NCBI RefSeq assembly: GCF_014863605.1 | Contig: NZ_CP062252.1 | Span: forward strand, 5,217,001-5,281,000 | Direction of reading: 5' to 3' | Origin: Pseudomonas allokribbensis | Lineage (GTDB): Bacteria; Pseudomonadota; Gammaproteobacteria; Pseudomonadales; Pseudomonadaceae | DNA: 64,000 bases | In this document: positions 10,231 through 60,800 of the stretch, one piece after another | How positions within the stretch are numbered: position 1 is the stretch's first letter | How the letters are laid out: each line of letters opens with the position of its first letter | Position numbers and translations under genes: made by a program | Notes under the pieces: generated by a model | The model's input: only the letters and a program-made list of their open reading frames with translations | The model's database searches: none | What the model was told of the DNA's origin: nothing

Positions 10231-10320
10231 GGGCAACTCCGATAACAAGACTGGGAAAAGATGGCGGGTATCCTACCCCTTCTGTCCTCCGGACGGCATG
10301 CCCGGCAACGATTTGCAGGG

Positions 10321-10349
10321 GTGAAATATCTTTCCCGGCGCTTTATAGT
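10321..10349 (+). promoter_or_regulatory. candidate sigma-70 promoter of metG
   Basis: -35 GTGAAA (10321-10326), 17-base spacer and -10 TATAGT (10344-10349), about 37 bases upstream of metG. The -10 is good and the -35 weak. Confidence 0.4.
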
Positions 10350-10385
10350 GGCCGACCTCCGTTTCATCAAGTAGCGAAGCCCCAC

Positions 10386-41175: not shown

Positions 41176-41198
41176 GTGGTTGACCCAAGGCATCTGTG

Positions 41199-44425: not shown

Positions 44426-44436
44426 GCGAGAACGAT

Positions 44437-44775
44437 GTGGATCTGATTTTCAAGGCAATGATCGGTGCGGCGGTGGTGGTGATCCTCGCCATGCTGGCCA
44501 AGACCAAAAACTACTACATCGCCGGCCTGGTGCCGCTGTTTCCGACCTTCGCCCTGATCGCCCATTACATCGTCGGCAAGGGACGCTCGGTCGACGACCT
44601 GAAGACCACCATCGTGTTCGGCATGTGGTCGATCATTCCGTACTTCGTGTACCTGGCGACGCTGTACGTGATGGTTGACCGGATGCGTCTGGAAGCTTCA
44701 CTGGCCGTGGCGGCTGTCGCGTGGCTGATGGCGGCGACGGTACTGGTCAGCGTCTGGGTACGTCTGCACGCCTGA
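44437..44775 (+). CDS. glpM: GlpM family membrane protein
   Basis: 112 aa, four hydrophobic segments; contains KNYYIAGLVPLFPTFALIAHYIVG, the GlpM hallmark. In P. aeruginosa glpM lies by glpD and affects alginate production; its molecular role is unclear. Start GTG at 44437, 11 bases after aauR, so probably part of that transcript. P. putida has it at this same place, as I recall. Confidence 0.85.
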   Translation: MDLIFKAMIGAAVVVILAMLAKTKNYYIAGLVPLFPTFALIAHYIVGKGRSVDDLKTTIVFGMWSIIPYFVYLATLYVMVDRMRLEASLAVAAVAWLMAATVLVSVWVRLHA

Positions 44776-44798
44776 CGGCCGCCGTATGGGAGAGGGCC

Positions 44799-44814
44799 TG
44801 GCCCGTCCCTTGCA
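44799..44814 (+). promoter_or_regulatory. sigma-54 promoter match upstream of ureohydrolase-like gene
   Basis: TGGCCCGTCCCTTGCA fits TGGCACG-N4-TTGCW except for one base (A to C). The -24 GG is at 44800-44801 and the -12 GC at 44812-44813. It lies 85 bases before the next gene. No activator site was recognised nearby. Confidence 0.65.
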
Positions 44815-44898
44815 TTTACCCCCGAAAGCCCGCCCGGCCGGCGCTCATGTTCGATGAGGCCGGTGTCTGGGAGGGTCTGCCAAGGGTGAATTGCGACC

Positions 44899-45819
44899 TT
44901 GAACATTTTAGATCTCGACCACAGCCTGACCGGCCAGGCGTCCATCATGCAGCTGCTCGACAGCGGCCGCGCCCAACGCCTGGACCTGCTCGACCTCGGC
45001 CCGAAACTGCGGCTCTGGTCCAGCGAACGGACCTTTCGCCGCTTTACCGAACGCCTGCGTGAGCGGCCCCGGCACAGCGGCCCTGCACCGGAAATCTTCT
45101 TCGTCGGCTCCGGCGACTATCACCATCTGACGCCGGCCTTCCTGACTGACCTGCCCGAGCCGGTAAGCCTGATCCACTTCGACAATCATCCCGACTGGGT
45201 TCACTTTGCCCCCCGTCGCCACTGCGGCTCGTGGGTCAATCAGGCCCTGAAACTGCCAAACATCGAACGTATCGTCACCCTCGGTCCGTGCAGCGACGAT
45301 CTGCAAAATCCTCAGATCAAGGGCGGCAATCTCGGTGCCCTGAAACGCGGTGTGTTGCAGCTGTTCCCGTGGCAGCACCCGCCGTCGAAAGTCTGGGGCC
45401 GGGTCGGCGATGGCGCCGGTCATCAGCAACAGGAAAACCTGCTGCACTGGCACAACCTGGCCGATCAGGACTGGACGGCGTTTCTCGAGCGGATGATCGC
45501 CAGCCTTCCTACCAAAGCCGTGTGGATCACCATCGACAAGGACGTACTGGCCAGCGAAGACGCCGCGACCAATTGGGATCAGGGCCAGATGCGCCTGAGC
45601 CACTTGCTCCAGGCGATCCGCAGCCTGGCCGCCAGCAAACGCATCATCGGCATCGACATCTGTGGCGAGTTCGCCCGCCCGGCCTTCAGCAACGCGTTCA
45701 AACGCTGGGAAGCCAAGTCCGACCAGCCGCCGGCCGAGCGCTGGAGCGAAACCGATCTGCTACGCAACTCGGCGACCAATCAAGCGTTGATCGAGTTGTT
45801 CGAGGAGCTGTTCCCATGA
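44899..45819 (+). CDS. Ureohydrolase (arginase/agmatinase)-fold protein with variant metal motifs
   Basis: 306 aa. The three metal motifs of the arginase superfamily are recognisable but changed: SGDYHHLTP for GGDHS, HFDNHPDW for DAHxD, and TIDKDVL for SxDxD. Histidine and aspartate ligands could still bind two metals, so a hydrolase for a guanidino or amide substrate is likely, though the actual substrate is unknown. Start TTG at 44899 (reads as NILDLDHSLTGQ); ATG at 44947 is an alternative. Overlaps the next gene by four bases. Confidence 0.7.
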   Translation: MNILDLDHSLTGQASIMQLLDSGRAQRLDLLDLGPKLRLWSSERTFRRFTERLRERPRHSGPAPEIFFVGSGDYHHLTPAFLTDLPEPVSLIHFDNHPDWVHFAPRRHCGSWVNQALKLPNIERIVTLGPCSDDLQNPQIKGGNLGALKRGVLQLFPWQHPPSKVWGRVGDGAGHQQQENLLHWHNLADQDWTAFLERMIASLPTKAVWITIDKDVLASEDAATNWDQGQMRLSHLLQAIRSLAASKRIIGIDICGEFARPAFSNAFKRWEAKSDQPPAERWSETDLLRNSATNQALIELFEELFP

Positions 45820-46190
45820 CCTTGACCGTGATTTTGCTGGTGGCGTTTTCCATCGTGCTCGACGTGATCGGCCAGCTCTGTTTCAAACTCGGCCTGGACC
45901 GTTTGCCTGAGCTTGAGGGCGGTTTTCGGCTGGGGGCGTTCTGGGGGCAGGTGTTCAACGCACCGCTGCTGTGGTGCGGGATCGGCGCCTACGTGATCGA
46001 GTTTTTCGTCTGGCTCGAAGCGCTGTCCCGGGCGCCGCTGAGCCTGTTGTTTCCCGCCGCCGCGCTGGCGTATTGCGGCGTGGTGCTGGCCGGCAAGCTG
46101 TTCCTTGGCGAGACCGTCAGCCGCCGTCGCTGGATGGGCACACTGGTGATTACGGCGGGCGTGATGCTCGTGTGTGTCGGCCATGCCTGA
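45816..46190 (+). CDS. Small EamA/SMR-type membrane transporter subunit 1 (ArnE-like)
   Basis: 124 aa, four TM helices. VLDVIGQLCFKLG near the start is like ArnE (SVAGQLCQKQA) and aligns an aspartate with the essential proton-coupling glutamate of SMR proteins; PLSLLFPAAALAYCGVVL and the C-terminal TLVITAGVMLV follow the family. ATG at 45816 overlaps the previous stop. With the next gene it forms a paired set, like the ArnE/ArnF flippase heterodimer. Confidence 0.75.
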   Translation: MTLTVILLVAFSIVLDVIGQLCFKLGLDRLPELEGGFRLGAFWGQVFNAPLLWCGIGAYVIEFFVWLEALSRAPLSLLFPAAALAYCGVVLAGKLFLGETVSRRRWMGTLVITAGVMLVCVGHA

Positions 46191-46221
46191 TTCTCAACTG
46201 ATACTCAAAAGGAATGGCTCG

Positions 46222-46605
46222 ATGGATTGGCTTCACGGCCGTCTCGGCACCGTGGTGCTCTGGGCGTTGCTGATTATTCTGGAAAGTGGTGGGCAGATCG
46301 CGACCAAGGTCGGCGGCGATCAACTGGGGCAAATGGACTTCACCCTGCAATGGCTGCTCAACGTCGCTCAGGCACCCGGTGTGCTGTTGGCGATTGCCTG
46401 TTACATCGGTGCGTTCTTTGTCTGGATGCTGATTCTGCGACGCAGCAGCCTGTCCCTGGCGTTTCCACTCAGTTCGCTGGTGTTCGTCGGCGTGCTGCTG
46501 GGGTCGTGGCTGGGGCTGGGTGAGCAGATCAGCGTGCTGCACTGGGTGGGTGTGGCCGTGATCATGGGCGGCATTGCGCTGCTGGCCGAGGGCGAGGAAA
46601 ACTGA
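46222..46605 (+). CDS. Small EamA/SMR-type membrane transporter subunit 2
   Basis: 127 aa, four TM helices; IILESGGQIATKVG carries the family's membrane glutamate, and SLSLAFPLSSLVFVGVLLG is typical. Start ATG at 46222 chosen because AAGGA stands eight bases upstream; ATG at 46183 (overlapping the previous stop) would add 13 residues. Similar in size to its partner, so the two probably form a heterodimeric flippase or exporter. Followed by a hairpin. Confidence 0.75.
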   Translation: MDWLHGRLGTVVLWALLIILESGGQIATKVGGDQLGQMDFTLQWLLNVAQAPGVLLAIACYIGAFFVWMLILRRSSLSLAFPLSSLVFVGVLLGSWLGLGEQISVLHWVGVAVIMGGIALLAEGEEN

Positions 46606-46616
46606 GGAAGTCGACA

Positions 46617-46638
46617 GTGGGAGCCAGCAGGCTCCCAC
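46617..46638. terminator. hairpin between converging genes
   Basis: GTGGGAGCC AGCA GGCTCCCAC, weak T-run. Serves the flippase genes and/or the desaturase gene. Confidence 0.6.
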
Positions 46639-46650
46639 GTTATGTACGGT

Positions 46651-47517
46651 TCAATCCTTGCGATGAGCCACCAGAAACCCGAGGCCATGGGCCACCGGAA
46701 TGTCCTTCACCCCCGCCTCCCGCTGCTGCTCGCCAATCTCCCGGTGAAACACCTTGACCCGGGTCCAATGCATTTTCGGCCGATAGTGATGCTCGGCGTG
46801 ATAGCCGTTGTTCATCCACAACAAGTTGTAGAGCGGGCTGTAGGCGCTGACGCCCCAGGCAATCGGCGAATCCGGGTTGCCGCCAAAATGCTCGTAGTAG
46901 CCGTTGAGCGATGACAGCGCCTGACCCAGATACCAGAACGGCAACAACACCAGCACCGCCCGCCAGTCATACGCAGCCAACCCCAGGTAAAACGCCACTG
47001 TCACGCCGATCTCCACTTTGACCCAGCGCGCATCGTCGGGACGCTTGCGACGCATCTCGTCGTAGATCGGCTTGGGATCATCGCGAAAGAAACTCAAAAA
47101 GGTGTAGGCCCAGGGATTCTCGGGCTGGCCGTCCTTGCCCCGCTGGTAGATCGACAGCGGATCGATGGTCTTGCCATCCGCCCCCGGCCGGTCCGAATTA
47201 CCCCGGTGATGGCGGTTGTGGATGTCGCGGTAGAGGGTCTGGGAGAAACCGATGGTCACCGACAACAGCAGGTCAAAAGCGCGGTTGAGCCACGCCGGCG
47301 TGAAGTAGGCGTTGTGGATCTGGTTGTGGGAAATGCTGTTGATGCTCCACGACAGGCTCACCGCATAGCCCAGCGCCAAAGGCAGCAACGCCCACCAGGA
47401 CAGCGCATGAAAGGCTGTGACCAGCCACACGACAAAAGCGAAATGGGCCAGGCCGAGGGCGATGGGAATCAGGTCCCACAGCGAGTGAGCCAGCAGACGA
47501 TAAACAGGGCGAGCCAT
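46651..47517 (-). CDS. Membrane fatty-acid desaturase/hydroxylase
   Basis: 288 aa di-iron integral membrane enzyme. All three histidine boxes are present: SHNQIHN (HxxxH), RDIHNRHH (HxxHH) and GYHAEHH (HxxHH). Hydrophobic segments precede and follow the boxes. ATG at 47517 (ARPVYRLL) is preceded by AGGA at eight bases; the longer frame is rejected. It follows the MipA-like gene on the same strand (67-base gap). The substrate may be an acyl chain; it does not look like the acyl-CoA desaturases with fused cytochrome b5. Confidence 0.85.
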   Translation of the reverse strand: MARPVYRLLAHSLWDLIPIALGLAHFAFVVWLVTAFHALSWWALLPLALGYAVSLSWSINSISHNQIHNAYFTPAWLNRAFDLLLSVTIGFSQTLYRDIHNRHHRGNSDRPGADGKTIDPLSIYQRGKDGQPENPWAYTFLSFFRDDPKPIYDEMRRKRPDDARWVKVEIGVTVAFYLGLAAYDWRAVLVLLPFWYLGQALSSLNGYYEHFGGNPDSPIAWGVSAYSPLYNLLWMNNGYHAEHHYRPKMHWTRVKVFHREIGEQQREAGVKDIPVAHGLGFLVAHRKD

Positions 47518-47584
47518 GAAGAACATCCTGAAACAATGGGTTCGACACGGCTGTCTGCAAAGGCCAGACCAGTTCCCGCCTGGC

Positions 47585-48346
47585 TCACTTGAATTTATAG
47601 GCGATCGCCATCTGCACCTCGCCCTGATTGGTATCGCCGACGCTTTTGACAATGCTGCTGTCGGCCGCCGAGTTCGTCAGGTGAATCCAGCTGGCGCTGG
47701 CCACCAGCGACCATTGAGGCGCGATAGGGAACTCGAAACTCTGGGTCAGCGCAATATTCTGCAAGCCGCCGCCGGCGTTGTACGCACGGATGCCGGAGGC
47801 CAGGGCCTCCTTGTCGCTGACACCGAAGAACGTGTTGTTTTGCCGGGCATTGGCGAAATGCGCGGTCAGATTGCTGCTGCCGATCACGCCGCCGCCCAGT
47901 GGATAGCCGATCTCGCCACCGACCCGACCGAGCACGCCGCCCTGCCCGCCGCCACCGCCGATGGCCTGGCCAACGGACGCGAACACCCGCCAGAAGTCGG
48001 CCGGGGCGTACTGCACGAAACCACCGGCCTCGGCCATGTCGGGCACATCGCGCAACCCGCGCAATTCGCCGTTGGAGGTACGGCCGGGCAGGTAATTCAC
48101 ATACGGACCGGCGCTGAAACCGTTGGCCTTCAAGGCGCTCCAGGTCAGGCCATCGTCGGTGCTGAGGCTGACATCGCCCCAGTCCAGATCGAGATACGGT
48201 ATCGGCCGGGTTTCATAACGGCTGCCGCTGGGATCATGAGGCTGATAACCCAGGCCCACGCCCGCCTCCCCGGTAATCCCCTGCGCCATTGCGCCTGCTG
48301 AAAAAGCGCTCAGCGCCACCAGTAAAAGCAGTGTCTTCCTCTTCAT
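47585..48346 (-). CDS. MipA/OmpV family outer-membrane protein
   Basis: 253 aa. Signal peptide residues 1-21 (LLLVALSAFSAGAMAQ). Beta-barrel-like repeats with GVGLGYQPHDP and family end MAIAYKFK. MipA scaffolds murein enzymes in E. coli; other members are antimicrobial-induced porin-like proteins. AAAGGA stands before the ATG. It shares the upstream region with the divergent HAD operon, so it may be co-regulated; no sigma-54 site was found on its strand. Confidence 0.82.
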   Translation of the reverse strand: MKRKTLLLLVALSAFSAGAMAQGITGEAGVGLGYQPHDPSGSRYETRPIPYLDLDWGDVSLSTDDGLTWSALKANGFSAGPYVNYLPGRTSNGELRGLRDVPDMAEAGGFVQYAPADFWRVFASVGQAIGGGGGQGGVLGRVGGEIGYPLGGGVIGSSNLTAHFANARQNNTFFGVSDKEALASGIRAYNAGGGLQNIALTQSFEFPIAPQWSLVASASWIHLTNSAADSSIVKSVGDTNQGEVQMAIAYKFK

Positions 48347-48418
48347 GAGGCCATTCCTTTAATTGAACATGCGCGCATCAATCCCCGGATGCCGCCCACC
48401 GCGCAAGCACTCATGTTG

Positions 48419-48436
48419 TTTGTAGCAAGCTACAAA
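48419..48436. promoter_or_regulatory. inverted repeat, candidate activator site
   Basis: TTTGTAGCAAGCTACAAA: 8-bp arms with a 2-base spacer. A further half-site TTGTAGC lies at 48439-48445. Located about 60-80 bases upstream of a sigma-54 promoter match, as for an enhancer bound by the operon's own last gene (inference). Confidence 0.55.
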
Positions 48437-48498
48437 AATTGTAGCTTCGAATCGCCAAAGCACCTCATCAGCCCCGCCAACAAGGGGGCCGAAGCACT

Positions 48499-48514
48499 TG
48501 GCACAGTCCCTGCT
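48499..48514 (+). promoter_or_regulatory. sigma-54 promoter match before HAD operon
   Basis: TGGCACAGTCCCTGCT matches TGGCACG-N4-TTGCW at all but two positions; GG at -24 and GC at -12 are correctly spaced. Initiation near 48525 would give about a 40-base leader. Confidence 0.7.
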
Positions 48515-48564
48515 CTACCCCTCGGCAAGCGCACACAACGCGCTCTGACCAATAGGTAATGCAG

Positions 48565-49293
48565 ATGATTGACTGGCATATCGTGTGTGATTTCGACGGG
48601 ACCATCACCCGCACCGACGTGATCGACAGCATTCTCGAACGCTTCGCCGACCCGAGTTGGGAAGTGATCGAAAACCAGTGGCTGGCCGGTGAAATCGGTT
48701 CCCGTGAATGCCTCAGCCGCCAGCTCTCGCTGGTCAAGGCCACGCCCGGCCAATTGCTGGAATTCTTCGACAGCATCGAAATCGATCCGGACTTTCCCGA
48801 CTTCGTCGACCACGCCATCGGCCTGGGCGCATCGTTCGAAGTGGTCAGCGACGGCATCGAACAAGGCATCGCGCGGATTCTTTCGCGCAACTACGTGACC
48901 CTGCTGCCGATCCTCGCCAACCGCCTGCGACAGCTGGATCACGAAAGCTGGCGCATCGACTTTCCGTATTCCAGCGATGCCTGCCGCGCGGCCTCCGGCA
49001 ACTGCAAATGCAAATCCACGCCCGGCAACAAACGGGTGCTGGTGATCGGCGACGGCCAGTCCGACATGTGCGTGTCGTCCACCGCCGACTTCGTCTTCGC
49101 CAAGGGTCGCCTCGCCGAATACTGCGAACGCAACGCGATCCCTTACGCCCGCTTCGACAGCTTCGCTGAACTGCCGGCGCTGCTGGCCCTGCTGCCAAAG
49201 GCCAGCGCCGCCAACGCCACCTCTTTCAATGCCGAAGCTTTCAACTCGGAAACTTTCAATACAGAAACACAGGAACTCTTCCACCATGTCTGA
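48565..49293 (+). CDS. MtnX-like HAD phosphatase
   Basis: 242 aa. HAD motif I CDFDGTIT (catalytic D9 and D11), motif II VVSDG, and motif IV GDGQSDMCV; the insert GNCKCK is typical of the MtnX-like HAD-IB branch. Soluble phosphatase acting on a small phosphorylated substrate. ATG at 48565 is preferred to ATG at 48559, since AGG is better spaced. The C-terminus carries a 15-nt triplicated sequence (SFNAEAFNSETFNTET) that seems to be a late addition. Overlaps the aminotransferase start by eight bases. Confidence 0.8.
   Translation: MIDWHIVCDFDGTITRTDVIDSILERFADPSWEVIENQWLAGEIGSRECLSRQLSLVKATPGQLLEFFDSIEIDPDFPDFVDHAIGLGASFEVVSDGIEQGIARILSRNYVTLLPILANRLRQLDHESWRIDFPYSSDACRAASGNCKCKSTPGNKRVLVIGDGQSDMCVSSTADFVFAKGRLAEYCERNAIPYARFDSFAELPALLALLPKASAANATSFNAEAFNSETFNTETQELFHHV
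49223..49267 (+). repeat. three imperfect 15-nt tandem repeats
   Basis: Units CTTTCAATGCCGAAG, CTTTCAACTCGGAAA, CTTTCAATACAGAAA encode (A/S/T)FN-x-E repeats at the C-terminus of the HAD phosphatase, just before the aminotransferase start. Confidence 0.85.
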
Positions 49294-50680
49294 TATTCGA
49301 ATTGCTACTGCGGAAGACCAGATTCTTCTGGAAAAAGAAGCCAAGTACTGCTCCTACGGCGACACCGTTCACTACATCGAACCGCCGCGCATTTTCAGCC
49401 GCTGCGAAGGCTCCTACGTCTGGGACACCGAAGACCAGGCCTACCTCGACCTGCAAATGTGGTACTCGGCGGTCAACTTCGGTTACGCCAACCCGCGCCT
49501 GAACAACGCGCTGAAACAGCAAATCGACACCCTGCCGCAGATCGCCAGCCAATACCTGCACAAAGGCAAGATCGAGCTCTCGGAAATGATCGCCGTGGAC
49601 GCCAAGAAGAAGTTCGGCCTCGACGGTCGCGTGCACTTCAACGTCGGCGGTTCGCAGTCCATCGAGGACTCGCTGAAAGTCGTGCGTAACGCCAGCAACG
49701 GCAAAAGCCTGATGTTCGCCTTCGAGGGCGGTTACCACGGTCGTACCCTCGGCGCCTCGTCGATCACCTCCAGCTACCGCTATCGCCGCCGCTACGGCCA
49801 CTTCGGCGAACGCGCCAACTTCATCCCGTTCCCGTACCACTTCCGCGGCCCGAAAGGCATGACCAAGGAAGAGTACGGCAGCCACTGCGTGCAGCAGTTC
49901 GCCCGTCTGTTCGAAACTGAATACAACGGTGTCTGGGACCCGAAAGTCGGCCAGAGCGAATACGCAGCGTTCTACGTCGAGCCGATCCAGGGCACCGGCG
50001 GCTACGTGATTCCACCGATGAACTTCTACAGCGAACTCAAGCATGTGCTGGACCAGCACGGCATCCTGATGGTGGTCGACGAAATCCAGATGGGCTTCTA
50101 TCGCACCGGCAAGCTGTGGTCGATCGAACACTTCGACGTCAAACCGGACGTGATCGTCTTCGGCAAGGCACTGACCAACGGCCTCAACCCGCTGGGCGGC
50201 ATCTGGGCCAAGGAAGAACTGATCAACCCGAAAGTCTTCCCGCCAGGCTCGACCCACTCCACCTTCGCCTCCAACCCGCTGGGCACCGCCGTGGGCCTGG
50301 AAATGTTCAAGATGACCAGCGAAGTCGACTACGGCGCGATGGTCATGGCCAAGGGCAAATACTTCCTTGAAGGCCTGCAGGACCTGCAGAAACGCTACCC
50401 GATCATCGGCGACGTCGATGGCCTGGGCCTGGCCCTGCGCTGCGAAATCTGCGGCCCGGACGGTTTCACTCCGGACAAGGCCACCCTGGACTTCATGGTC
50501 GAAGAAGGCATGAAAGGCGACATCGAGATCGACGGCCGCAAACTGGGCCTGATCCTCGACGTGGGCGGCTACTACAAGAACGTGATCACCCTCGCGCCAT
50601 CGCTGGAAATCAGCTACCCGGAAATCGACCTGGGCATCGCCCTGCTCGACCGTCTGCTGGCCCGGGCGATGAAACGATGA
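49286..50680 (+). CDS. Class III PLP aminotransferase
   Basis: 464 aa, of the 4-aminobutyrate / ornithine aminotransferase fold. PLP lysine K294 (VFGKALTNG), aspartate D265 in VVDEIQMG, and GGYHGRTLGASS. It transfers an amino group onto an aldehyde or ketone (or makes a diamine); substrate unknown. Position after a HAD phosphatase suggests a phosphorylated or dephosphorylated intermediate. Coupled to its neighbours by overlaps of eight and four bases. Confidence 0.85.
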   Translation: MSDIRIATAEDQILLEKEAKYCSYGDTVHYIEPPRIFSRCEGSYVWDTEDQAYLDLQMWYSAVNFGYANPRLNNALKQQIDTLPQIASQYLHKGKIELSEMIAVDAKKKFGLDGRVHFNVGGSQSIEDSLKVVRNASNGKSLMFAFEGGYHGRTLGASSITSSYRYRRRYGHFGERANFIPFPYHFRGPKGMTKEEYGSHCVQQFARLFETEYNGVWDPKVGQSEYAAFYVEPIQGTGGYVIPPMNFYSELKHVLDQHGILMVVDEIQMGFYRTGKLWSIEHFDVKPDVIVFGKALTNGLNPLGGIWAKEELINPKVFPPGSTHSTFASNPLGTAVGLEMFKMTSEVDYGAMVMAKGKYFLEGLQDLQKRYPIIGDVDGLGLALRCEICGPDGFTPDKATLDFMVEEGMKGDIEIDGRKLGLILDVGGYYKNVITLAPSLEISYPEIDLGIALLDRLLARAMKR

Positions 50681-51558
50681 ACGCTGCCGGGATCGATCTG
50701 GGCGAAGGCGACGCCGGTTTCGTTCTCGGCACAGGGGAGGTCGCGGTGTTGTTGATCCACGGCCTCACCGGCACCCCGACGGAGTTGCGTCGGGTCGCCG
50801 TGGGACTGGCCAAGGCCGGTTGCACGGTGTACGTGCCGACCCTGGCCGGGCACTGTGGCGGCAATGCCGATTTGCAGGCCACCGGCTGGCGCGACTGGTA
50901 CGAAGGCGTGCGCAAAACCTTCGTCGGCATCCGTCGCCAGCACAGCAAAGTGTTTGTCGGCGGCCTGTCGATGGGTGCGGTGATGTCGATGTACGTGGCG
51001 TCCGAGCATCCGGGCCAGGTGGCCGGGTTGCTGATGTATTCCACGACCCTGAAATACGACGGCTGGAGCATCCACAAACTGGCGTTCCTGACGCCGTTGC
51101 TGATGAAAATCCCGTTCGGCGTGCACATCTGCAAGTTCGAGGAGAAACCACCCTACGGCATCAAGAATGAACGCCTTCGGGCCATCGTCGAACGGCAGAT
51201 GAAGGAAGGCCACAGCAGTGAGGCCGGCCTGCTGACCATGGAGGGCGTGACCGTGCGCGAACTGCATCGGATGAACGCCGTGGTGCGCAAACGCATGCCT
51301 TCCATCACGGTGCCGGCCCTGGTGCTGCACTCCATCGAGGACGACATCACCAGCCGCTGGAACGCCGACTACGTGGAACGCAAGCTCGGTGGCGAAGTGG
51401 TGAAGATCCTGCTGGACGACTGCTATCACATGATCACGGTCGACCTGCAGTACCGACGCGTCGTGGAACTGAGTGTGCAATTCATCCAGAACCACCGCAC
51501 CGACCTGCCGCTCACCGCTCCCTCCCTGCCGGCCGAGGAATACCGGCAGCGGGCGTGA
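50677..51558 (+). CDS. Alpha/beta hydrolase (carboxylesterase/lipase type)
   Basis: 293 aa. HGLTGTPTE oxyanion motif, nucleophile S98 in GGLSMG, acid in SIEDDITSRW and histidine in CYHMITVD. Similar to Est30-type carboxylesterases. No signal peptide, so cytosolic. It could hydrolyse or transfer an acyl ester within the pathway. ATG overlaps the aminotransferase stop by four bases. Confidence 0.85.
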   Translation: MNAAGIDLGEGDAGFVLGTGEVAVLLIHGLTGTPTELRRVAVGLAKAGCTVYVPTLAGHCGGNADLQATGWRDWYEGVRKTFVGIRRQHSKVFVGGLSMGAVMSMYVASEHPGQVAGLLMYSTTLKYDGWSIHKLAFLTPLLMKIPFGVHICKFEEKPPYGIKNERLRAIVERQMKEGHSSEAGLLTMEGVTVRELHRMNAVVRKRMPSITVPALVLHSIEDDITSRWNADYVERKLGGEVVKILLDDCYHMITVDLQYRRVVELSVQFIQNHRTDLPLTAPSLPAEEYRQRA

Positions 51559-51601
51559 GTCGACTGCAAAAACGATACGCCTTGCCGGTTAAGGAAACGA
51601 C

Positions 51602-52729
51602 GTGATCACGGCCCAAGCCTTTTCAACCATCGAAGCGATTGATCGCGACGCATGGAATGCCTGCTTTCCCGAGGAGCTCGAAGACTGGGCCTATTATCGC
51701 GCCGTTGAACAGGCCGGCATCGACGGCTTCCAGTGGCGCTACCTGGCGCTGTTTGAAGACAACCACCTGATTGCGGCGGTCGTGGCCTTCACGACCGCCT
51801 ATTCGCTCGACACCACCCTGCAGGGCACCGGCAAACGCTTGAGCCAATGGCTGCGCAGTTGCTGGCCGGGGCTGTTCGACATCCGCCTGTACGCCCTCGG
51901 TTCGCCGGTGGCGGAGCAGTGCCACGTCGGCACCCTCCCGTCTATTGATCCGACCCGCTGGCCTGACCTGTTCGCGCGCCTGCTGAAACTGGCTCGCGAG
52001 GACGCGGACCAGGCCGGAATCGGCCTGCTGGCCGTCAAGGATGCTTCCCATCGCAACCCGCAATGGCTCCAGGCCTGTCGCGAGGCCGGGTTGCAGAGCA
52101 TGCCGGGGTTGCCCGGTGCCGAGCTGCCGATCACCTTCGCATCGGTCGACGCCTACCTCGGCACCCTGGGCAAATCCACCCGCAAGGACTTGCGCCGGAC
52201 CCTGCGTGGTTCGGGCCCGCGCATCGAATGGCGGCGCTCGGTCGACGACCTGCTGCCGACCATGATGCGTCTGTACGAAGCGACCCTGGCCCGCAGCGAC
52301 CTGACGTTCGAGTGCCTGCCGGCTGCGTACTTTCGCCAGGTGCTGGAACACCTCGACGAACGTGCCGCCTGCGTTTTGTACTGGGTCGGCGATGAGCTGG
52401 TAGCGTTCAACCTGGTGCTGCTGGACGAGCAAAGGCTGGTGGACAAGTTTTTTGCCCACGATCTGGCCCGGACCCGCGAGCACAAACTGTACATGCGCAG
52501 CTGGCTGGCCAATGTCGGCTACTGTATTGAACACCGCATCCCGATCTACGCGTGCGGCCAGGCCGGTTATGCCAGTAAGCTGCGCCTGGGTTGCTCGTTC
52601 GTCGGCAACACCGTGTTTTTCCGCCACCGCCATCCCGTGCTCAATCAACTGCTGCGGCTGGTGAAGTTATTCATCCGCCCGGATCGTACCGACCCGGCCA
52701 TGGCGACTGCGATAAGCGAACAACAATAA
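51602..52729 (+). CDS. FemAB/GNAT-like acyltransferase
   Basis: 375 aa. The C-terminal half has the acetyltransferase-6 (BioF2/FemAB-like) pattern: STRKDLRRTLRGSGPRIEWRR, LTFECLPAAYFRQVLEHL, DELVAFNLVLLDEQRLVDKF. These enzymes attach acyl or aminoacyl groups. Start GTG at 51602 follows AAGGA by seven bases. No TM segment. Gap of 43 bases from the hydrolase. The family assignment is by motif shape; the acyl donor and substrate are unknown. Confidence 0.7.
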   Translation: MITAQAFSTIEAIDRDAWNACFPEELEDWAYYRAVEQAGIDGFQWRYLALFEDNHLIAAVVAFTTAYSLDTTLQGTGKRLSQWLRSCWPGLFDIRLYALGSPVAEQCHVGTLPSIDPTRWPDLFARLLKLAREDADQAGIGLLAVKDASHRNPQWLQACREAGLQSMPGLPGAELPITFASVDAYLGTLGKSTRKDLRRTLRGSGPRIEWRRSVDDLLPTMMRLYEATLARSDLTFECLPAAYFRQVLEHLDERAACVLYWVGDELVAFNLVLLDEQRLVDKFFAHDLARTREHKLYMRSWLANVGYCIEHRIPIYACGQAGYASKLRLGCSFVGNTVFFRHRHPVLNQLLRLVKLFIRPDRTDPAMATAISEQQ

Positions 52730-52735
52730 GCGAGC

Positions 52736-54511
52736 ATGATGATCAACGACCGACGCGCCACCGCCCGACCCTTCGCCCTCTCCGGCTGGAGCCTGCAACG
52801 CAAACTGGTGCTGGCGTTCTGGCTGGTCAGCGTGATCCCGACCATGATCGCCGCGGAACTGGCGGCCACCACCCTGTCGCAGATTTTCGACAGCAACGTG
52901 CGGATCTGGCTGCAGGAATCGACCAAGATCGTCGAGGACGAGATTCGCGAGATCGTGCGCGACAACGCCCGCGTCGCACAGTTGTTCCTGCGCTATACCC
53001 GCCCGCCCACGGACCGGCAGTCGTCCAGACGCGACAAGCTCACCGCTGACATCGCTGACTCCATGGGCATCGACGTGGTCGCCCTGGTGCGCAATAGCGA
53101 TCACAAAGTGGTATTCAGCACTGCCGCCGATGACATCGTGCGGCAAATCAGCACCGCGCCCAAAGCCGTGCTGCAGACTCTGCAGGTCGGCGGCGTGGCG
53201 ACCGGCGCCGTGGTTTCAACCTTCGAAAGCGATCAGGACGGCACCGACTACAAACTGATTGTCGTGACCTATCTCGATAACAGTTTCCTCACCAGCGTCG
53301 CCGACGTGCACTCTCTGGATCTGCGCCTGTACCTGGCCAAGGACGCCGACTTCTCGGAAATCTTTTCCACTCAGCGTTTTGAAGATCACCCGGCGATCGT
53401 GCCTGCAAAAATCGAGGACCAACTGCGCAGCACCAAGTTGCCGATCGAGCAGTCGACCAACCGCTACAGCGGCATCTACCGACCGATTCTCAACGAAAAC
53501 GGTGAACTGCAAGGCGTGGTATTCAGCGGTCTGCTGCGCCACACGACACTGGTCGGGCTGGTGAACCAGAGCAACCTGTTCATCCTGATCTTCATCCTCA
53601 GCTCGGCGGCTTCGCTCGCGGTGGGCTGGCTGGTATCCCAGCGCCTGACCATGCCGCTGCGCGGCCTGGCCAAAGGCGTGCAAGCGGTGATCGCCGGGGA
53701 CTACCGTCAGCGCCTGCCCGTCACCGGCGGCGATGAACTGGCGGAACTGAGCAGCACCTTCAACCACATGAGCGAACGCCTCGGCGAGTTGCAACACCTG
53801 GAATCGCAACTGCGACGCCGCGACCGCTTGCATGCGCTGGGTGAAGTCGCGATGGGCCTGGCCCATGAAATCCGCAACCCGCTGGGCATCATCAAGACCG
53901 CCACGCAACTGCTGCACCGACGCGCCGACCTGCCGGAGACCGACAAGCGTCATCTGGAATACGTGGTCAGCGAGGTCAGCCGCATCAACGACCTGATCAC
54001 CGAATTTCTCGACTTCGCCAAGCCCAGCGCGCCGCTACGCTCGACCCAACTGGCGCGGCCGCTGGTGGATGAGCTGGTGGGCTTCTGCGCCCCGGAACTG
54101 GCCAGCCACAATATCGATGTGCGGATCGACGACCGCGCCCCCACCGCCACCCTGTATGCCGATGCCCGGCAACTCAAACAGGCGGGCCTGAACCTGATCG
54201 TCAACGCCATCGACGCCATGCCCGACGGCGGTCGCCTGACCCTGGGCATCCACAGCGATAAGCACAATACGGTCATCAGCGTCAGCGACACGGGCCAGGG
54301 CATCGAAGCCGATATGCTCGAGCGGATCTTCACGCCGTTCGTCACCACCAAGGCGTCCGGCACCGGGCTCGGCCTGGCCAAGGTGTTCTCGATCATGGAA
54401 AGCCATGACGGGCGCATCGAATGCGTCAGCGAAAAAGATGCCGGGGCCACGTTCAGCCTGTACATTCCGGCCAACGGTGAAGATTTCGACGAGGACAGCG
54501 ATGACGCATAA
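52736..54511 (+). CDS. Membrane sensor histidine kinase
   Basis: 591 aa. TM at about residues 26-45, a periplasmic sensing domain (about 50-275), TM at about 283-305, HAMP, HisKA box MGLAHEIRNPLGII and HATPase with N, G1 and G2 motifs (NLIVNAIDAMPDGG, DTGQGI, TGLGLAKVF). Tandem ATG codons at 52736/52739. Overlaps the regulator by 11 bases. The ligand is unknown; by context it may be the pathway's own precursor or product. Confidence 0.9.
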   Translation: MMINDRRATARPFALSGWSLQRKLVLAFWLVSVIPTMIAAELAATTLSQIFDSNVRIWLQESTKIVEDEIREIVRDNARVAQLFLRYTRPPTDRQSSRRDKLTADIADSMGIDVVALVRNSDHKVVFSTAADDIVRQISTAPKAVLQTLQVGGVATGAVVSTFESDQDGTDYKLIVVTYLDNSFLTSVADVHSLDLRLYLAKDADFSEIFSTQRFEDHPAIVPAKIEDQLRSTKLPIEQSTNRYSGIYRPILNENGELQGVVFSGLLRHTTLVGLVNQSNLFILIFILSSAASLAVGWLVSQRLTMPLRGLAKGVQAVIAGDYRQRLPVTGGDELAELSSTFNHMSERLGELQHLESQLRRRDRLHALGEVAMGLAHEIRNPLGIIKTATQLLHRRADLPETDKRHLEYVVSEVSRINDLITEFLDFAKPSAPLRSTQLARPLVDELVGFCAPELASHNIDVRIDDRAPTATLYADARQLKQAGLNLIVNAIDAMPDGGRLTLGIHSDKHNTVISVSDTGQGIEADMLERIFTPFVTTKASGTGLGLAKVFSIMESHDGRIECVSEKDAGATFSLYIPANGEDFDEDSDDA

Positions 54512-55889
54512 CGTACTGGTGGTCGACGACGAGCCCAAGCTCTGCGACTTGCTGGCATCGGCCTTGAGTCAGAACGACATTGTGGTGTTCACCGCCGGCA
54601 ACGGCCTGCACGCGCTCAAGGTGCTGGAAACCGAAGACATCGATCTGGTGATCAGCGACTGGCGCATGCCCGGCATGGACGGCCCGCAACTGCTGGCGGA
54701 AATCAAAAACCGTTTCCCGCAGTTGCCGGTGATCGTCATGACCGCCTACAGCACGGTGAAAAACGCCGTGCAGTCGATGCGCAACGGCGCCTTCGACTAC
54801 ATCGCCAAGCCCTTCGATATCGATGAGCTGGACATCACCGTCAGCAAGGCCCTGCAATTTCGCGACATCCTCAAAGACAACCAGCGCATGCGCGCCGAAC
54901 TCGACGAACACCAGCAGATCGACAGCCTGGTCGGCGACAGCCCGAGCTTTCGTCGGGTACTGAGCGCGATCGACTCGGTGCGCGAAAGCAACGCCACCAT
55001 CCTGCTGACCGGCGAGAGCGGCACCGGCAAGGAAATGGTCGCCCGGGCCATCCACAAGCACGGCAACCGCGCCGACAAGCCGTTTGTCGCAGTCAACTGC
55101 GCGGCAATCCCGGAAGGGCTGCTGGAGAGTGAAATGTTCGGCCACCGCAAAGGCGCGTTCACCGGTGCGGTGGCGGACCGGGTCGGGCGTTTCCAGCAGG
55201 CGGACAAGGGCACGCTGTTTCTCGACGAAATCGGCGAAATGCCGCTGGCGCTGCAAGCGAAAATCCTGCGCGCCTTGCAAGAACGCATCATCGAACCGGT
55301 GGGCGATCCGCGCGAGCGCAAGGTCGATGTGCGGGTCATCGCCGCGACCAACAAGAACCTGCTGGATGCGGTGGCCAACAAGGAGTTTCGCGAAGACCTG
55401 TATTACCGCCTCAACGTGTTCCCGATTCCGTTGCCGGCCCTGCGTGAGCGGGTCGAAGACATCGCGCCGCTGGCCCGGCATTTCGCTCACACCCTGGGCG
55501 CCGCGGCGGGCAAGCGCTTTAGCGGTTTCAGTGCCGAAGCGTTGCAGGCAATGGCCCGCTACTCGTGGCCGGGCAATATTCGTGAACTGCAGAACTGCGT
55601 CGAACGCGCGACCATCGTGGCGTCCGGCGCAGAGATTGAAGAGCAGGACTTGCCGGCCTATCTGTTTGCCTCACAGCCGACCGAGCCCGGCGCCCTGGTC
55701 GCTGAAGGCAGCGTGCCGGCCGACCTGGAAGCGGCACTGGCCGAGGTGGAAAGAGCCTACATCCTCGCCGCGCTGGCGCAGAGCAACGGCGTGCAGGCTG
55801 CGGCAGCGCAGTTGATCGGGATTTCCGAGCGCAGTTTCTGGTATCGGTTGAAGAAACTGGGGATTCACGTGGACAAGATCGTCCGCTAG
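54501..55889 (+). CDS. Sigma-54-dependent response regulator
   Basis: 462 aa. Receiver with D53 (ISDWRMPGMDG), AAA+ domain with Walker A GESGTGKEM, intact GAFTGA loop (GHRKGAFTGA), Walker B GTLFLDEIGEM, arginine finger region YYRLNVFPIPLPALR, and a C-terminal Fis-type helix-turn-helix (AAAQLIGISERSFWYRLKKLG). It is the final gene of the operon whose own promoter looks sigma-54-dependent, implying autoregulation. ATG at 54501 overlaps the kinase gene by 11 bases. Confidence 0.93.
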   Translation: MTHNVLVVDDEPKLCDLLASALSQNDIVVFTAGNGLHALKVLETEDIDLVISDWRMPGMDGPQLLAEIKNRFPQLPVIVMTAYSTVKNAVQSMRNGAFDYIAKPFDIDELDITVSKALQFRDILKDNQRMRAELDEHQQIDSLVGDSPSFRRVLSAIDSVRESNATILLTGESGTGKEMVARAIHKHGNRADKPFVAVNCAAIPEGLLESEMFGHRKGAFTGAVADRVGRFQQADKGTLFLDEIGEMPLALQAKILRALQERIIEPVGDPRERKVDVRVIAATNKNLLDAVANKEFREDLYYRLNVFPIPLPALRERVEDIAPLARHFAHTLGAAAGKRFSGFSAEALQAMARYSWPGNIRELQNCVERATIVASGAEIEEQDLPAYLFASQPTEPGALVAEGSVPADLEAALAEVERAYILAALAQSNGVQAAAAQLIGISERSFWYRLKKLGIHVDKIVR

Positions 55890-55893
55890 CCAC

Positions 55894-55918
55894 GGTTCCC
55901 GGACAATGCCCGGGAACC
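55894..55918. terminator. hairpin after the sigma-54 operon
   Basis: GGTTCCCGG / CCGGGAACC stem with loop ACAATGC; no clear T-run. It lies between converging genes. Confidence 0.5.
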
Positions 55919-55927
55919 CTCGCAGCA

Positions 55928-56593
55928 TCAGTTCACCGTGCCGCCCTTCGCCTCGCTCATGATCTGCCGGATCGCCCCGACAAAGGTCTCGACCGGCTGC
56001 CCGCCACTGACCGCGTATTGCCCGTTGAACACCACGGTCGGCACCGAGCTTACGCCGCGCGACAGCCACAATTGCTCCTCCTTGCGCACGTCGCTGGCGA
56101 ATTCGTCGGATGCCAGAATCGCCTCGGCACGCTGTCGGTCCAGACCCACGCTTTCGGTAATCTGCGCCAGTTGCGAGTGATCGGACGGGTTGCCGCCATC
56201 AGTGAAATACGCCTTGAACAGCGCCTCTTTCAACGGCAACTGCAAGCCCTCCTCCCCGGCCCAGTGCAGCAGCCGATGAGCATCGAAGGTGTTGTAGATG
56301 CGGCTGTTCGAATCGGTGCGAAAACTGAAACCGACATCGGCCCCACGGGAGCGGATCACTTCACGATTCTTCTGTGACTGCTCCGGGGTCGATCCGTATT
56401 TTTCCTGGATATGCTCGCCGATGTTCTGCCCGTCCGGCCCCATCTTCGGGTTCAGCTCGAACGGCTGGAAACGGATCTCGGCCTGCACCTCGTTGCGCAA
56501 AATCTCCAGCGCCCGCAGCAAACCGTACAGACCGACGACGCACCACGGGCAGGACACGTCGCTGACAAAATCGATTTTCAGGGCAGAACTCAT
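55928..56593 (-). CDS. DsbA family oxidoreductase (FrnE-like)
   Basis: 221 aa. CxxC motif is CPWC (residues 15-18 region), with the FrnE-type pattern VSCPWCVVGLYGL and cis-proline loop SSVPTVVFNGQYAVSGGQP. No signal peptide, so cytoplasmic, as in other FrnE-like proteins. It may reduce or isomerise disulfides, or act as a 2-hydroxychromene-2-carboxylate isomerase relative. Converges with the sigma-54 operon. Confidence 0.88.
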   Translation of the reverse strand: MSSALKIDFVSDVSCPWCVVGLYGLLRALEILRNEVQAEIRFQPFELNPKMGPDGQNIGEHIQEKYGSTPEQSQKNREVIRSRGADVGFSFRTDSNSRIYNTFDAHRLLHWAGEEGLQLPLKEALFKAYFTDGGNPSDHSQLAQITESVGLDRQRAEAILASDEFASDVRKEEQLWLSRGVSSVPTVVFNGQYAVSGGQPVETFVGAIRQIMSEAKGGTVN

Positions 56594-56643
56594 GACTCAC
56601 CTCGCGCGTTCAATCGTGGCCAAAGACCTGCACGATACACCCG

Positions 56644-57678
56644 CTAGAGCAGATTGCGCTCGGTCACCGGTTCGATCTGCGCCCAGTGCGAAGTGTCTTC
56701 ACGGTGTTGCTGCAAATACGGCAACACCGCCGCCAGCAACGGCGCCTTGAACGCCTCCTGGAAACGATGGGCCAGACCCGGAATCAGCTTCAACTGGCTG
56801 CCGCGAATGTGCGCCGCCAGATGCACGCCATGCATCACCGGCAGCAATGGGTCGGCCGTGCCGTGCACCACCAGCGTCGGCACCCGCAATTGATTGAGCA
56901 ATGCCACGCGGCTCGGCTCGGCAAGGATCGCCATGATCTGACGCTTCACGCCTTCGGGGTTGAACGCCCGGTCATAGGACACCGCCGCCTGATGCAACAG
57001 CATCTGACGATCATCGGTGACCGTCGGGCTGCCCAGTGCCGCCAGCAGATCGGCCTGTTGTTCCAGCGCCACTTCGCGATTGGGTGCGCCGCGTCGCGAC
57101 AGCAACTGCACCAACGCCGCGCTCGGTGCCGGCAGGCCTTCGGCACCGGAGCTGGTCATGATCAGCGTCAGGCTCTCGACCCGTTGCGGCGCCATGGCCG
57201 CCAGGTGCTGGGCGATCATCCCGCCCATGCTCGCGCCGAGCACGTGGAATTGCTCGACGTGCAACGCGTCCATCAGGCCCAGCGCATCCTCGGCCATGTC
57301 GGTCAGGCTGTAGGGCGCCGCCACCGGCAGACCGAGTTTGTAACGCAGCACTTCAAACGTCAGGTTGGCCTCGGCCGGCGCCTGGCGCCAGGTCGAAAGA
57401 CCGACATCGCGGTTGTCATAACGAATCACCCGAAATCCCTGCTGACACAGGGCAATCACGACTTCGTCAGGCCAGTGAATCAACTGCCCGCCCAGCCCCA
57501 TCACCAGCAACAACGCCGGATCCGACGCACGACCAATGCTCTGGTACGCCAGGCTCACCTGCTCCAGATCGACCCGTTCGGTCGGTACATTGACGTCGCA
57601 ACGCGACGCCGCATAAGACGCCTGCCCGAAAAAAACCGCGGCCAACAACGCCGCGATTGCAAAAAATCCCTTGAACAT
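56644..57678 (-). CDS. Exported alpha/beta hydrolase
   Basis: 344 aa. Signal peptide residues 1-24 ([18 protein letters not shown]). Oxyanion HG-like [10 protein letters not shown], nucleophile GASMGG (serine), acid in GTADPLLPV and histidine in GLAHRF complete a hydrolase triad. Likely periplasmic. I chose ATG at 57678; the 36-codon upstream extension would disturb the signal peptide. It is divergent from the large toxin gene (212-base gap to the chosen start). Confidence 0.82.
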
Positions 57679-57890
57679 GAAAAACACCGAAACGCAGAAC
57701 CCCAGTAGAGCGCGAGTCTGATGAAGTTTGTTCAAGCGCGCTGCCACAGTTCGATGACAGTTTGATGAAGAGTGCCGAGCGGTCATTTCCAGGCGCGATA
57801 ACTATGCAACACCACTGCCCCCAGGCATTTCTTTTCAATGGTTCGTTATATGGAGTGGATCTCCCGCTCCCCGTCGCGAGCCACTTGAGC

Positions 57891-60800
57891 ATGTCCGAAC
57901 ACATTTTTACCGATCACCCGATGCCTGCACCGCACGTCTGGCCTGCTTCGCTGCCTTTGCCGACAAACATCGACAGCGCGCTGTTACACAGCGCCATGGA
58001 TCGCTGGCGCAGTGCCAGTCATGGTTTGCGTGACCTGTTTGACGGCGTACCGTCCATCCGCGCTTCGCTGACTGACCTGCTGGAACGTGAGCTCGATCTG
58101 GGGGAGCGGGATTCAGGCTTTCTCTTTCCGGCGACTGATAAATACTCCGAGCAATTTGTCGGTTTCACGCCGCTGCTTGCCTTCATCTATCCAAAAGACC
58201 AACCGGAAACGACGCTCGCCCGCCCCTGTGCAGTAACCGGCCTCGACAGCAACCATGCGATGGCGTCCCTTACCCCCCTTCAATTGCTGGTCCGGATCAC
58301 GGCGCTGGCCCCGGAAACTGAACTGAACCGGCGCTGGGAGTCGTACTGGAATGCCCGAGCGCCCGGGACGGCTTTTTCACGTCGTGAACAGGCCGGCCGG
58401 CTGTACCAGTCTCATCTGGAGGCAACCGCTCAGGTAGCGCTGGCGCAGCGCAGCCTGACCGCCGACCATTTAGAACCGTTATGGCTGCTCATGAATGCCT
58501 CGTCGTCCCCGCCACGCCTGGGTGATCAACCCGTGCATAGCGAAGGGTTGGAGCTGGTGCTCGGAAACGACTCCCGGGGCAAAATTCCCGGTACGTGGGT
58601 GATCAGCGTCGGAGACCGACAATCCGGGCGGCAACTCCTGTATTTGCCCCATCATCCGGTGCCCTTGCAGTCCTTCGACGGACGCAGCGATATGGAGGCC
58701 TGGTTGTCTGGCCTGGGACTCGTTCCGAACGGACTGCTCACAACCGGGCTGCGCTTTGAATACAGTGCCAGAGCCCTGCCATTGACCACAGGCATGACAG
58801 ACGTGCTGGCCCAGATGCAACAGGCCCGGATCAATACCTTGCGTCAGGGCTCGGCCGGCAAGTCCGGACTGGCCGAGCATGGCGCTCAGGCTCTGGACCA
58901 GACAGACAGGCTGGAACGCCAACTGCGCATTGCGGGGTCGCCGGCCTCCCCTCCTGCTGTGCCGGAGTGGAGGCCGGCGACCCGGGATGAAGAGCAACCG
59001 TTGTTCGGTGCGCTGACCACCGATATTCCATGGCCAGTGCGCCAGGCTGCACTCGAGCGACAGCGCGACGCCCTGCAAATCTGGTCAACCGTTGCCAGAG
59101 ATGAAGAGCGCCAGGCGTTCAAGGATCAGCTTCAGCGTCTGGAAGCTGCTGAACTGGCGGCCGATATGGCAGCTCAAGCCATGCTGTACCGCGAACGCGC
59201 ACTGGATACGGTTACCCTCGATCGCGAATTCACCGCCTTGCACCAGGCGCACAAAAAAGGGCTGCTCGCCGAAGCCGGACTGCAGCACACACTCAAGCAA
59301 CTGAGTGAAGAACAGTACGTGGCACTGATGTCTGTTCTGGACACCTCCGGCGACACCGATGCCGACTGGTGCGCAGCCGAGATATCGCTATCGGCGCGCG
59401 ACCGGCCCAACGCCTCCCGACAGACGCTCAACGGACCGCTGGTCATCACCCACGAGGTCGCCCTGTCGGATCCCGCTGCGCCTCATGCTCTGCTGTTGTA
59501 TTGGCCGGGTACTGGTGGCGGATTGCAACGGTTCGACAATCGTCGTGAACTGGAGTGCGAGGTGTTCAAGGTACAGGAGCAGGACCCGTTGCTGATGTTG
59601 CAACTGAGCCGGATCACAGGCGATCCGTTGCAGCATGTCCTGAATCAGGTGTCCGTCGAGTTCGAAGAGCAGGCAGGCGCCCTACGCCGGAACGACAGTG
59701 AAACACCCCGGTCGGCGCTACATGCCGAATATCTCGAAACCTTGCGCCGGCAGTTTGTCGCCAGACTGCAAGTGCCCGTCAGCGCCGCACGGCAACTGGC
59801 CTTGTCGCACCTTGGAGAACAAGACACCAGCGCTGCTCTGGCCTCCAGCCTGCCGGACTGGCTGAGCAATCTGTCCGGGTTCGACCGTAGCGAACTCAGG
59901 TGGCTGGTCGAGGCATACATCAAAGCCATGCAACGTAGTCAGACCCTGATGGAAACGGCCCTGCCACCGCGCGACGAATTCACCCGAAAACATTTGCAAG
60001 CCCGCCTGCGCGAGGATTTTTCGCTCAAGGGAATTTTCGATGTGCAATTGGATCTGCCCGATTCAGTCGCGATGGAACACCATGCGTTCAACGCCCCTGG
60101 CGCGCCGGGCACCCCGAAGAAACTGGTATTGGTACCCAGCAAGACACGCAGCAAGATGTCCCTTGAAACCCTCGCCCAGAGCAATATCGACAACACACCG
60201 TCGATGAGCATGGAGCCCCTGGCGCTACGCCTGGGCTTCATGAAAGTCGACGTCACCGCATCAGACGAGACCGAGCGCCAAATCCTGGCCGCCGGTATTA
60301 CCAAGGCTTACCTGACCAGAACACTGCCCGACCTGGACCTGCCCAAAGCTTACGAAACCCTGATCCACCAGGTATTCATGGGATCGAACGATGACACGCC
60401 GTTCGTCAACGAACATCGTCGCGAGTGCCTGCTGGAACCGTGGCGGTTGGTACTCAGACTGCAAGGCGAATGCGCCCGGCTGCAAAAACACATCAGCGCG
60501 CAGGACCTGCAAATCCTCGACATCGCCATCGATGCCGATACCGCCCCTGCCTGGCGTGCGAATAACAGGCACATCGTCTTGCTGCCGGCCCTGCTGACTT
60601 CCGGCGGCAGGGACACACCAAACGAAGGCCCGGTGACGATCTCCGGCGTGAGCTTCATAGAGGAACAGGTCAGCGGGACAACATTGCTGTACCTGACCGA
60701 CAGCCCCGATGGGCAATGTCTGCGTCGCTACGACAATCTGGAAACCGCGCGCAAGGCGCTCTTCAACCTGTGCATGCAGGAAAAATGGTCTGGTTACCTG

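Follow-up and report, generated by a model that had tools for sequence, protein, structure and literature searches.

Several described systems resemble parts of a gene set in Pseudomonas allokribbensis that consists of a six-gene operon (48499-55889 with its promoter) and a second, nearby operon, both within the window analyzed here (64,000 nucleotides; contig NZ_CP062252.1 of assembly GCF_014863605.1, positions 5,217,001 to 5,281,000). The sensor kinase (HK) and response regulator (RR) of the six-gene operon share the kinase-regulator architecture, the GAFTGA motif, and a sigma-54 promoter with AtoSC and NtrBC, but they stay below the equivalog cut-offs among the matches listed (best 25 of 91 and 25 of 123) and lie inside a biosynthesis-like operon. 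Its transferase (FEM) shares the tandem-GNAT Fem fold of the MprF/Fem transferases (FemX, FemA, and Sbb17) and travels with flippase-like genes, but it differs in sequence, as neither the window protein nor the Bartonella-like FEM of locus L104 had a PDB sequence match at E 1 or below. The second operon encodes two adjacent small hydrophobic proteins (SMR1 and SMR2), as does the ArnE/ArnF aminoarabinose-lipid flippase, whose models are the best for both. However, the scores are far under the cut-offs: SMR1 reached 50 bits with ArnF (cut-off 99) and 34 with ArnE (cut-off 92), above the other SMR models listed, and SMR2 reached 39 with ArnE and 38 with ArnF. The phosphatase (HAD) belongs to the HAD-IB family and carries its motifs, as does MtnX of methionine salvage, but it is not an MtnX equivalog (106.8 bits vs 292 for NF007103; 89.2 vs 303.2 for TIGR03333). 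Finally, the N-terminal domain of RtxA is described as a dihydroxyacetone phosphate aminotransferase, after which the phosphate is removed to give serinol (PMC3222319). By this description, the route follows the same logic as that proposed below for HAD and the class III aminotransferase (AT), namely amination of a phospho-ketone and then dephosphorylation; serinol as their product is a lead only.

Each part of the gene set is of a known kind, and what is new is the combination and its conservation. The genes of both operons very probably form one functional module. We see an even chance that this module makes an acylated amine, probably lipid-like, in the cytoplasm and transfers the product to the cell envelope. 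A first-pass annotation of the six-gene operon had suggested an amino, possibly acylated, metabolite outside any named pathway, and the enzyme set fits such a product. HAD, AT, the alpha/beta hydrolase (ABH), and FEM reached no NCBIfam equivalog cut-off among the matches listed (for AT, the best 25 of 69). The open-access literature, in searches aimed at the gene set, was likewise silent on a named pathway with this combination, which is weak evidence with most subscription papers outside its scope.

Two operons and their recurrence in other genomes

The genes of the two operons and the divergent gene between them are the following.

48559-49293, + strand, HAD: MtnX-like HAD-IB phosphatase (NCBIfam, PDB, motifs)
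49286-50680, + strand, AT: class III aminotransferase (Pfam Aminotran_3, 244 bits)
50677-51558, + strand, ABH: alpha/beta hydrolase, monoacylglycerol-lipase-like (Pfam Hydrolase_4, 68 bits)
51602-52729, + strand, FEM: tandem-GNAT Fem-type transferase (Pfam FemAB_like, 40 bits; Acetyltransf_6, 35 bits)
52736-54511, + strand, HK: sensor kinase with periplasmic double-Cache-like domain (Pfam HAMP/HisKA/HATPase_c)
54501-55889, + strand, RR: AtoC/NtrC-like sigma-54 activator (Pfam Response_reg/Sigma54_activat/HTH_8)
44899-45819, + strand, ARG: ureohydrolase-fold protein (Pfam Arginase, 27 bits, cut-off 22)
45810-46190, + strand, SMR1: small hydrophobic membrane protein, best model ArnF (NCBIfam)
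46174-46605, + strand, SMR2: partner small membrane protein, best models ArnE/ArnF (NCBIfam, hydrophobic segments)
47585-48346, - strand, MipA: MipA/OmpV family outer-membrane protein, divergent from HAD (Pfam MipA, 127 bits)

The previously described order HAD-AT-ABH-FEM-HK-RR was confirmed, with overlaps of 8 (HAD/AT), 4 (AT/ABH), and 11 bases (HK/RR) and gaps of 43 and 6 bases on either side of FEM, and Pfam and NCBIfam agreed on each class. A single gene run, a conserved sigma-54 promoter, and a regulator gene of its own also bear out the earlier view of a self-contained unit. The description was right as far as it went but incomplete: the operon makes up half of a larger system, to which a second sigma-54 operon also belongs, and the described interval omits the partner operon (44899-46605) and MipA. 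No Rfam match at gathering scores was found across 42000-57000. The two halves are joined by locus L141, in which HAD-AT-ARG-SMR-ABH-FEM-SMR-HK-RR are consecutive on one strand. Because ARG, the SMR genes, FEM, HAD, AT, ABH, the kinase, and the sigma-54 regulator stand there in one row, we regard them as one system.

The co-occurrence check proposed at first pass showed that the enzymes recur together across lineages. It compared 51 loci with AT, drawn from about 16 lineages, against 20 control windows whose genomes also contributed loci (17 of these windows belong to one family); bit thresholds were set by us. Alongside AT, present in all 51 by choice, we found HAD in 48, ABH in 40, FEM in 32, SMR in 31, ARG in 28, and DegT in 22 loci, followed by ketosynthase, HlyD, and FtsX (20 each), DevA (19), acyl carrier protein (ACP; 14), and MipA (11), whereas each of the 13 module families was found in 0/20 control windows. 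These counts are not independent, since 22 of the 51 loci come from one family, and several loci end at contig ends. Self-query matches were dropped, which leaves the MipA of the window uncounted and ACP undercounted (L135 and L148 each have one that served as a query). ARG was accompanied by FEM in 28/28 of these loci, FEM occurred without ARG in 4, and ACP and ketosynthase occurred together in 14. The ketosynthase linkage spans six families (f182, f206, f264, f192, f254, and f274); the matches in L213, L214, L219, L220, and L222 are only 37-45% identical and could be general ones. The most complete order was that of L200, where MipA diverges from HAD-AT-ACP-ketosynthase-FEM-ARG, which faces DegT-SMR-ABH-HlyD-DevA-FtsX. 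The HlyD, DevA-like ATPase, and DevC-like FtsX permease genes, linked to AT in 19-20 of the 51 loci, resemble DevBCA-type exporters, but they were not found beside the window cluster, and the models, checked on L025 only, gave 224 vs 296 bits for DevA and 64 vs 290 for DevC. As a separate observation, a sulfotransferase-like protein (by eye; L147, 10788-11732) lies directly 3' of an otherwise lone AT.

The AT family is broad but patchy; of the 8,000 proteins scored, 5,898 reached an E value of 1e-100 or better. AT was present in 13/148 genomes of the family of the window (its own included), 3/274 of the class, 25/398 of the phylum, and 9/200 of another order. In one family, probably Rhodanobacteraceae, as guessed from the genera of named L104 FEM relatives (Rhodanobacter and Luteibacter, among others), it was present in 77/117 genomes and 21/26 genera. 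AT identity between distant lineages is about 62-78%. The enzyme is thus strongly conserved across distant lineages and frequent in one family, yet the operon enzymes match no equivalog among the models listed. A diffusible secreted antibiotic or signal, an N-acyl amine pumped out by the SMR and ABC exporters, would account for the exporter genes in 19-20 of the 51 loci and for the patchy distribution (13/148, 3/274, and 9/200 genomes), and a long protein beside the FEM-ARG locus of L191 has a weak match to PvdQ acylase (61 bits vs 950; tested in L191 only). We consider such a product unlikely; in the one family where 77/117 genomes have AT, its frequency is closer to that of a housekeeping or envelope trait.

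Gene content within Pseudomonas was counted in a set dominated by this genus, the best 80 of 579 confirmed AT loci, in which the closest named relative is P. bananamidigenes (AT 99%). The count covered 65 fully flanked loci, all found by AT; L088 and L104 had been left out beforehand, and L106 lay outside the range. HAD, ABH, the kinase, the regulator, and MipA were each present in 65/65, with MipA just upstream of HAD on the opposite strand. Both SMR genes were found in 54/65, FEM in 51/65, and ARG in 40/65, and all 40 ARG-positive loci also had FEM. When ARG was searched for in 20 genomes, 7 matched, 2 of them closely (79-81%; one on a different contig from the cluster) and 5 distantly (38-40%). 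In four loci with distant ARG (L189-L192), FEM-like and ARG-like genes stood together in 4/4, a DegT-like gene was present in 3, and an SMR-type gene in L189; their FEM is about 49% identical to the L104 type.

Promoters and the control unit

The cis-elements considered are the following.

48499-48514, + strand, sigma-54 promoter of the described operon, TGGCACAGTCCCTGCT, conserved upstream of HAD
44799-44814, + strand, sigma-54 (-24/-12) promoter of the second operon, TGGCCCGTCCCTTGCA, conserved upstream of ARG
48420-48445, + strand, probable regulator binding site TTGTAGC-AA-GCTACAA-AAA-TTGTAGC, with the conserved inverted repeat TGTAGCNNGCTACA

The sigma-54 promoter claimed at first pass did not stand as a match alone, which is at chance level: 36 matches with at most 2 mismatches were observed in the window, versus 42 expected by chance. 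Because the match in the window is not significant by itself, the case for the HAD promoter rests on its conservation, and here the claim held. The HAD-side site scored at least 9 of 12 in 82/83 Pseudomonas loci (shuffles 4.0%) and at least 10 of 12 in 81/83 (shuffles 0.8%), where the shuffles keep single-base composition and the loci are related, hence not independent. The sole miss was L088, a second HAD-AT-ABH copy in P. libanensis; this copy (9232-12261) is free-standing, without an adjoining kinase, regulator, or sigma-54 site. Across many lineages (31 loci, single-base shuffles), the HAD-side site reached at least 9 in 8/8 loci with a linked close sigma-54 regulator, four of them Pseudomonas or near it, versus 0/18 without one, in some of which HAD is not the first gene. 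Five loci fell in neither group: L134, L136, and L147 had no HAD match, L142 was cut before the regulator (score 10), and L145 had a distant regulator only (score 9). On the ARG side, the site scored at least 10 of 12 in 45/45 Pseudomonas loci (shuffles 1.1%). In 12/15 loci without ARG, a sigma-54 site precedes SMR1 instead, versus 0/45 with ARG; absence here, as in the count of 65 loci above, refers to the locus, and in one such genome (L052) a different contig carries a close ARG.

The TGTAGCNNGCTACA inverted repeat, at up to 3 mismatches, was found in 61/61 HAD upstream regions (shuffles 9.9%, again keeping single-base composition), namely those of the 83 in which the promoter pattern could be anchored. 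The repeat array at 48420-48445 is, from this conservation, likely the binding site of the regulator, and we infer that the described operon is controlled by its own regulator. Some observations on these sites count against the overall reading given below. Two of the 8 regulator-linked sites are weak (L101, p 0.037; L106, p 0.047), a score of 10 is also reached upstream of other module genes (AT in L136, ARG in L139, and ABH in L148, L137, and L103), and the repeat occurs upstream of ARG in only 6/44 regions, the level of the shuffles (9.5%). Because the ARG promoter region lacks the inverted repeat, the same regulator can be assigned to the second operon only tentatively. A regulator site shared by both operons was considered and rejected, with the repeat not enriched at ARG and no convincing shared 7- or 8-mer; the best shared k-mer, AGCAAGC, was found in 17/44 ARG and 35/61 HAD upstream regions. 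Genome-wide, the repeat at up to 2 mismatches was no commoner than a backward control (83 vs 151 per strand). The combined promoter pattern occurred 6 times in the genome. Two of these sites lie here, and the open reading frames near the other 4, inspected by eye, gave no lead. Just upstream of GlpM and of the ARG operon, the window encodes another sensor kinase with a sigma-54 regulator (41196-44425), a pair that looks DctBD-like by eye; its regulator gene sits downstream of the described operon in other Pseudomonas, and this regulator could act on the ARG promoter too.

RR has a receiver, an AAA+ domain with GAFTGA, and a Fis-type helix-turn-helix, as expected of a sigma-54 activator; it retains SDW as well as GAFTGA, and HK retains HEIR. 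The NCBIfam scores of RR were 482 bits with AtoC (cut-off 714) and 454 with NtrC (cut-off 559). The predicted structure of the HK sensor (pLDDT 76, pTM 0.62) matched, among others, Cache domains of chemoreceptors and kinases, with TM-scores of about 0.4-0.5.

These features also bear on a catabolic explanation, in which the cell senses an outside amine or amide, ABH and ARG hydrolyze it, and AT deaminates it, under sigma-54 control. The best models among the matches listed are AtoC for the regulator and AtoS for the kinase, and the sensor is Cache-like, a feature shared with amine and amino-acid receptors. Many ureohydrolases and class III aminotransferases serve catabolism, and sigma-54 also controls the use of other nitrogen and carbon sources. 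However, the transporters that recur with the enzymes are exporters, ArnE/F-like or of the HlyD-DevA-FtsX kind; ACP, ketosynthase, and the Fem-type transferase are biosynthetic; and the largest neighbor families listed include no uptake transporter or dehydrogenase, although no search was aimed at them. We therefore hold a catabolic operon to be distinctly improbable. In several non-Pseudomonas lineages, the enzymes adjoin a different kind of kinase-regulator pair, which looks OmpR-like by eye. Because of these pairs, the control unit appears, from gene content, to have been swapped between sigma-54 and OmpR-like types, with the enzymes retained.

Enzymes and the proposed envelope product

HAD scored 32 bits with the Pfam HAD model and 50.5 with TIGR01488 for HAD-IB (cut-off 45), carries the motifs DFDGT, SDG, and GDGxSD, and had 2fea (E 2e-15) as its only PDB match at E 0.001 or below. 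The first-pass idea that the operon phosphorylates or dephosphorylates its substrate stands in its second part, HAD being phosphatase-like; phosphorylation is unsupported, because the operon has no small-molecule kinase. AT exceeded the Aminotran_3 cut-off of 30.5 bits widely, and the lysine 294 of its GKAL motif, presumably the lysine that binds pyridoxal phosphate, was invariant in 8/8 aligned sequences; its identity to the 7 other rows was 64-97%. AT has threonine at both positions where 7vno has glutamate and arginine, which we take to be the switch glutamate and the carboxylate-binding arginine of 4-aminobutyrate/ornithine-type aminotransferases. By this alignment, AT lacks these two features of that type; 6io1 lacks the two residues too. 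ABH matched 4lhe (E 1e-27) and has a GLSMG motif. ARG keeps a two-metal site (GSGDxHH, DNHPD, and DKD, presumably metal ligands as in arginases) and its own signature NWDQG, all invariant in 29/29 aligned sequences, and is not an agmatinase equivalog (window ARG, 12 bits vs 302 for NF002564; L104 ARG, 25 vs 174 for TIGR01230). A search for a second FEM in the genome of the window, a single contig of 6.57 Mb, found only the known gene.

In the proposed route to an acylated amine, AT would aminate a small, perhaps phosphorylated, ketone or aldehyde, and HAD would strip the phosphate to leave an amino alcohol. An acyl chain, from the linked ACP and ketosynthase or, in Pseudomonas, from general fatty-acid synthesis, would then be joined by FEM through an amide bond, with ABH and ARG trimming or releasing intermediates. 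The ArnE/F-like SMR pair may flip the product, and MipA, together with the ABC exporter where present, may serve the outer membrane. The sensor would bind a small molecule outside, upon which the regulator would turn on the HAD promoter. In favor of this reading we count the conserved sigma-54 sites of both operons and their link to the regulator across lineages, the single gene row of L141, the constant company of ARG and FEM, the empty control windows, the joint occurrence of ACP and ketosynthase, the Arn-like scores of the SMR pair, the Fem fold of FEM, and the two AT residues that differ from 7vno. Routes through a methyl ketone or a beta-amino acid were considered as well. The bacterial sphingolipid pathway includes an ACP and a GNAT-type N-acyltransferase; our literature search on this parallel found nothing.

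The fold of FEM fits aminoacyl-tRNA as the donor as well, which weighs against an acylated amine, as do several other points. Confidence in the sensor model is middling. In 14/65 Pseudomonas loci neither FEM nor ARG is present, so that these two are not essential to the core. The window cluster has no adjoining ACP, ketosynthase, DegT, or ABC exporter; the ketosynthase (7) and ACP (5, mostly weak) matches of the genome lie elsewhere, and for DegT the genome offers at best a weak match (45 bits). With aminoacyl-tRNA as the donor, the locus would instead be an MprF/Arn-like, amino-acid-adding envelope modification, in which FEM acts on the amine or lipid that AT and HAD produce, the ArnE/F-like pair flips the product, and the product lowers the surface charge and guards against cationic peptides. 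We consider this rather unlikely.

Returning to the acylated amine, we propose only tentatively that it represents a class of envelope aminolipid that has not been described before and that occurs widely in Proteobacteria, insect-gut symbionts among them. This doubtful but possible reading would combine an amine from AT and HAD, Fem-type acylation, ArnE/F-like flipping, outward carriage by HlyD-DevA-FtsX and MipA, a Cache-sensed outside ligand, and the swap between sigma-54 and OmpR-like control. If true, a new envelope lipid would bear on surface charge, on resistance to host peptides, and on how bacteria live on roots and in the guts of insects. The envelope-lipid idea is directly testable through the two sigma-54 operons.

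A gene of the fatty-acid-desaturase family lies between SMR2 and MipA (46651-47652) and is found in only some Pseudomonas loci. It was considered as a component of the module and left out, being upstream-readable in only 15 Pseudomonas loci. Downstream of the described operon, the window also contains an open reading frame of 1893 codons (57762-63443).

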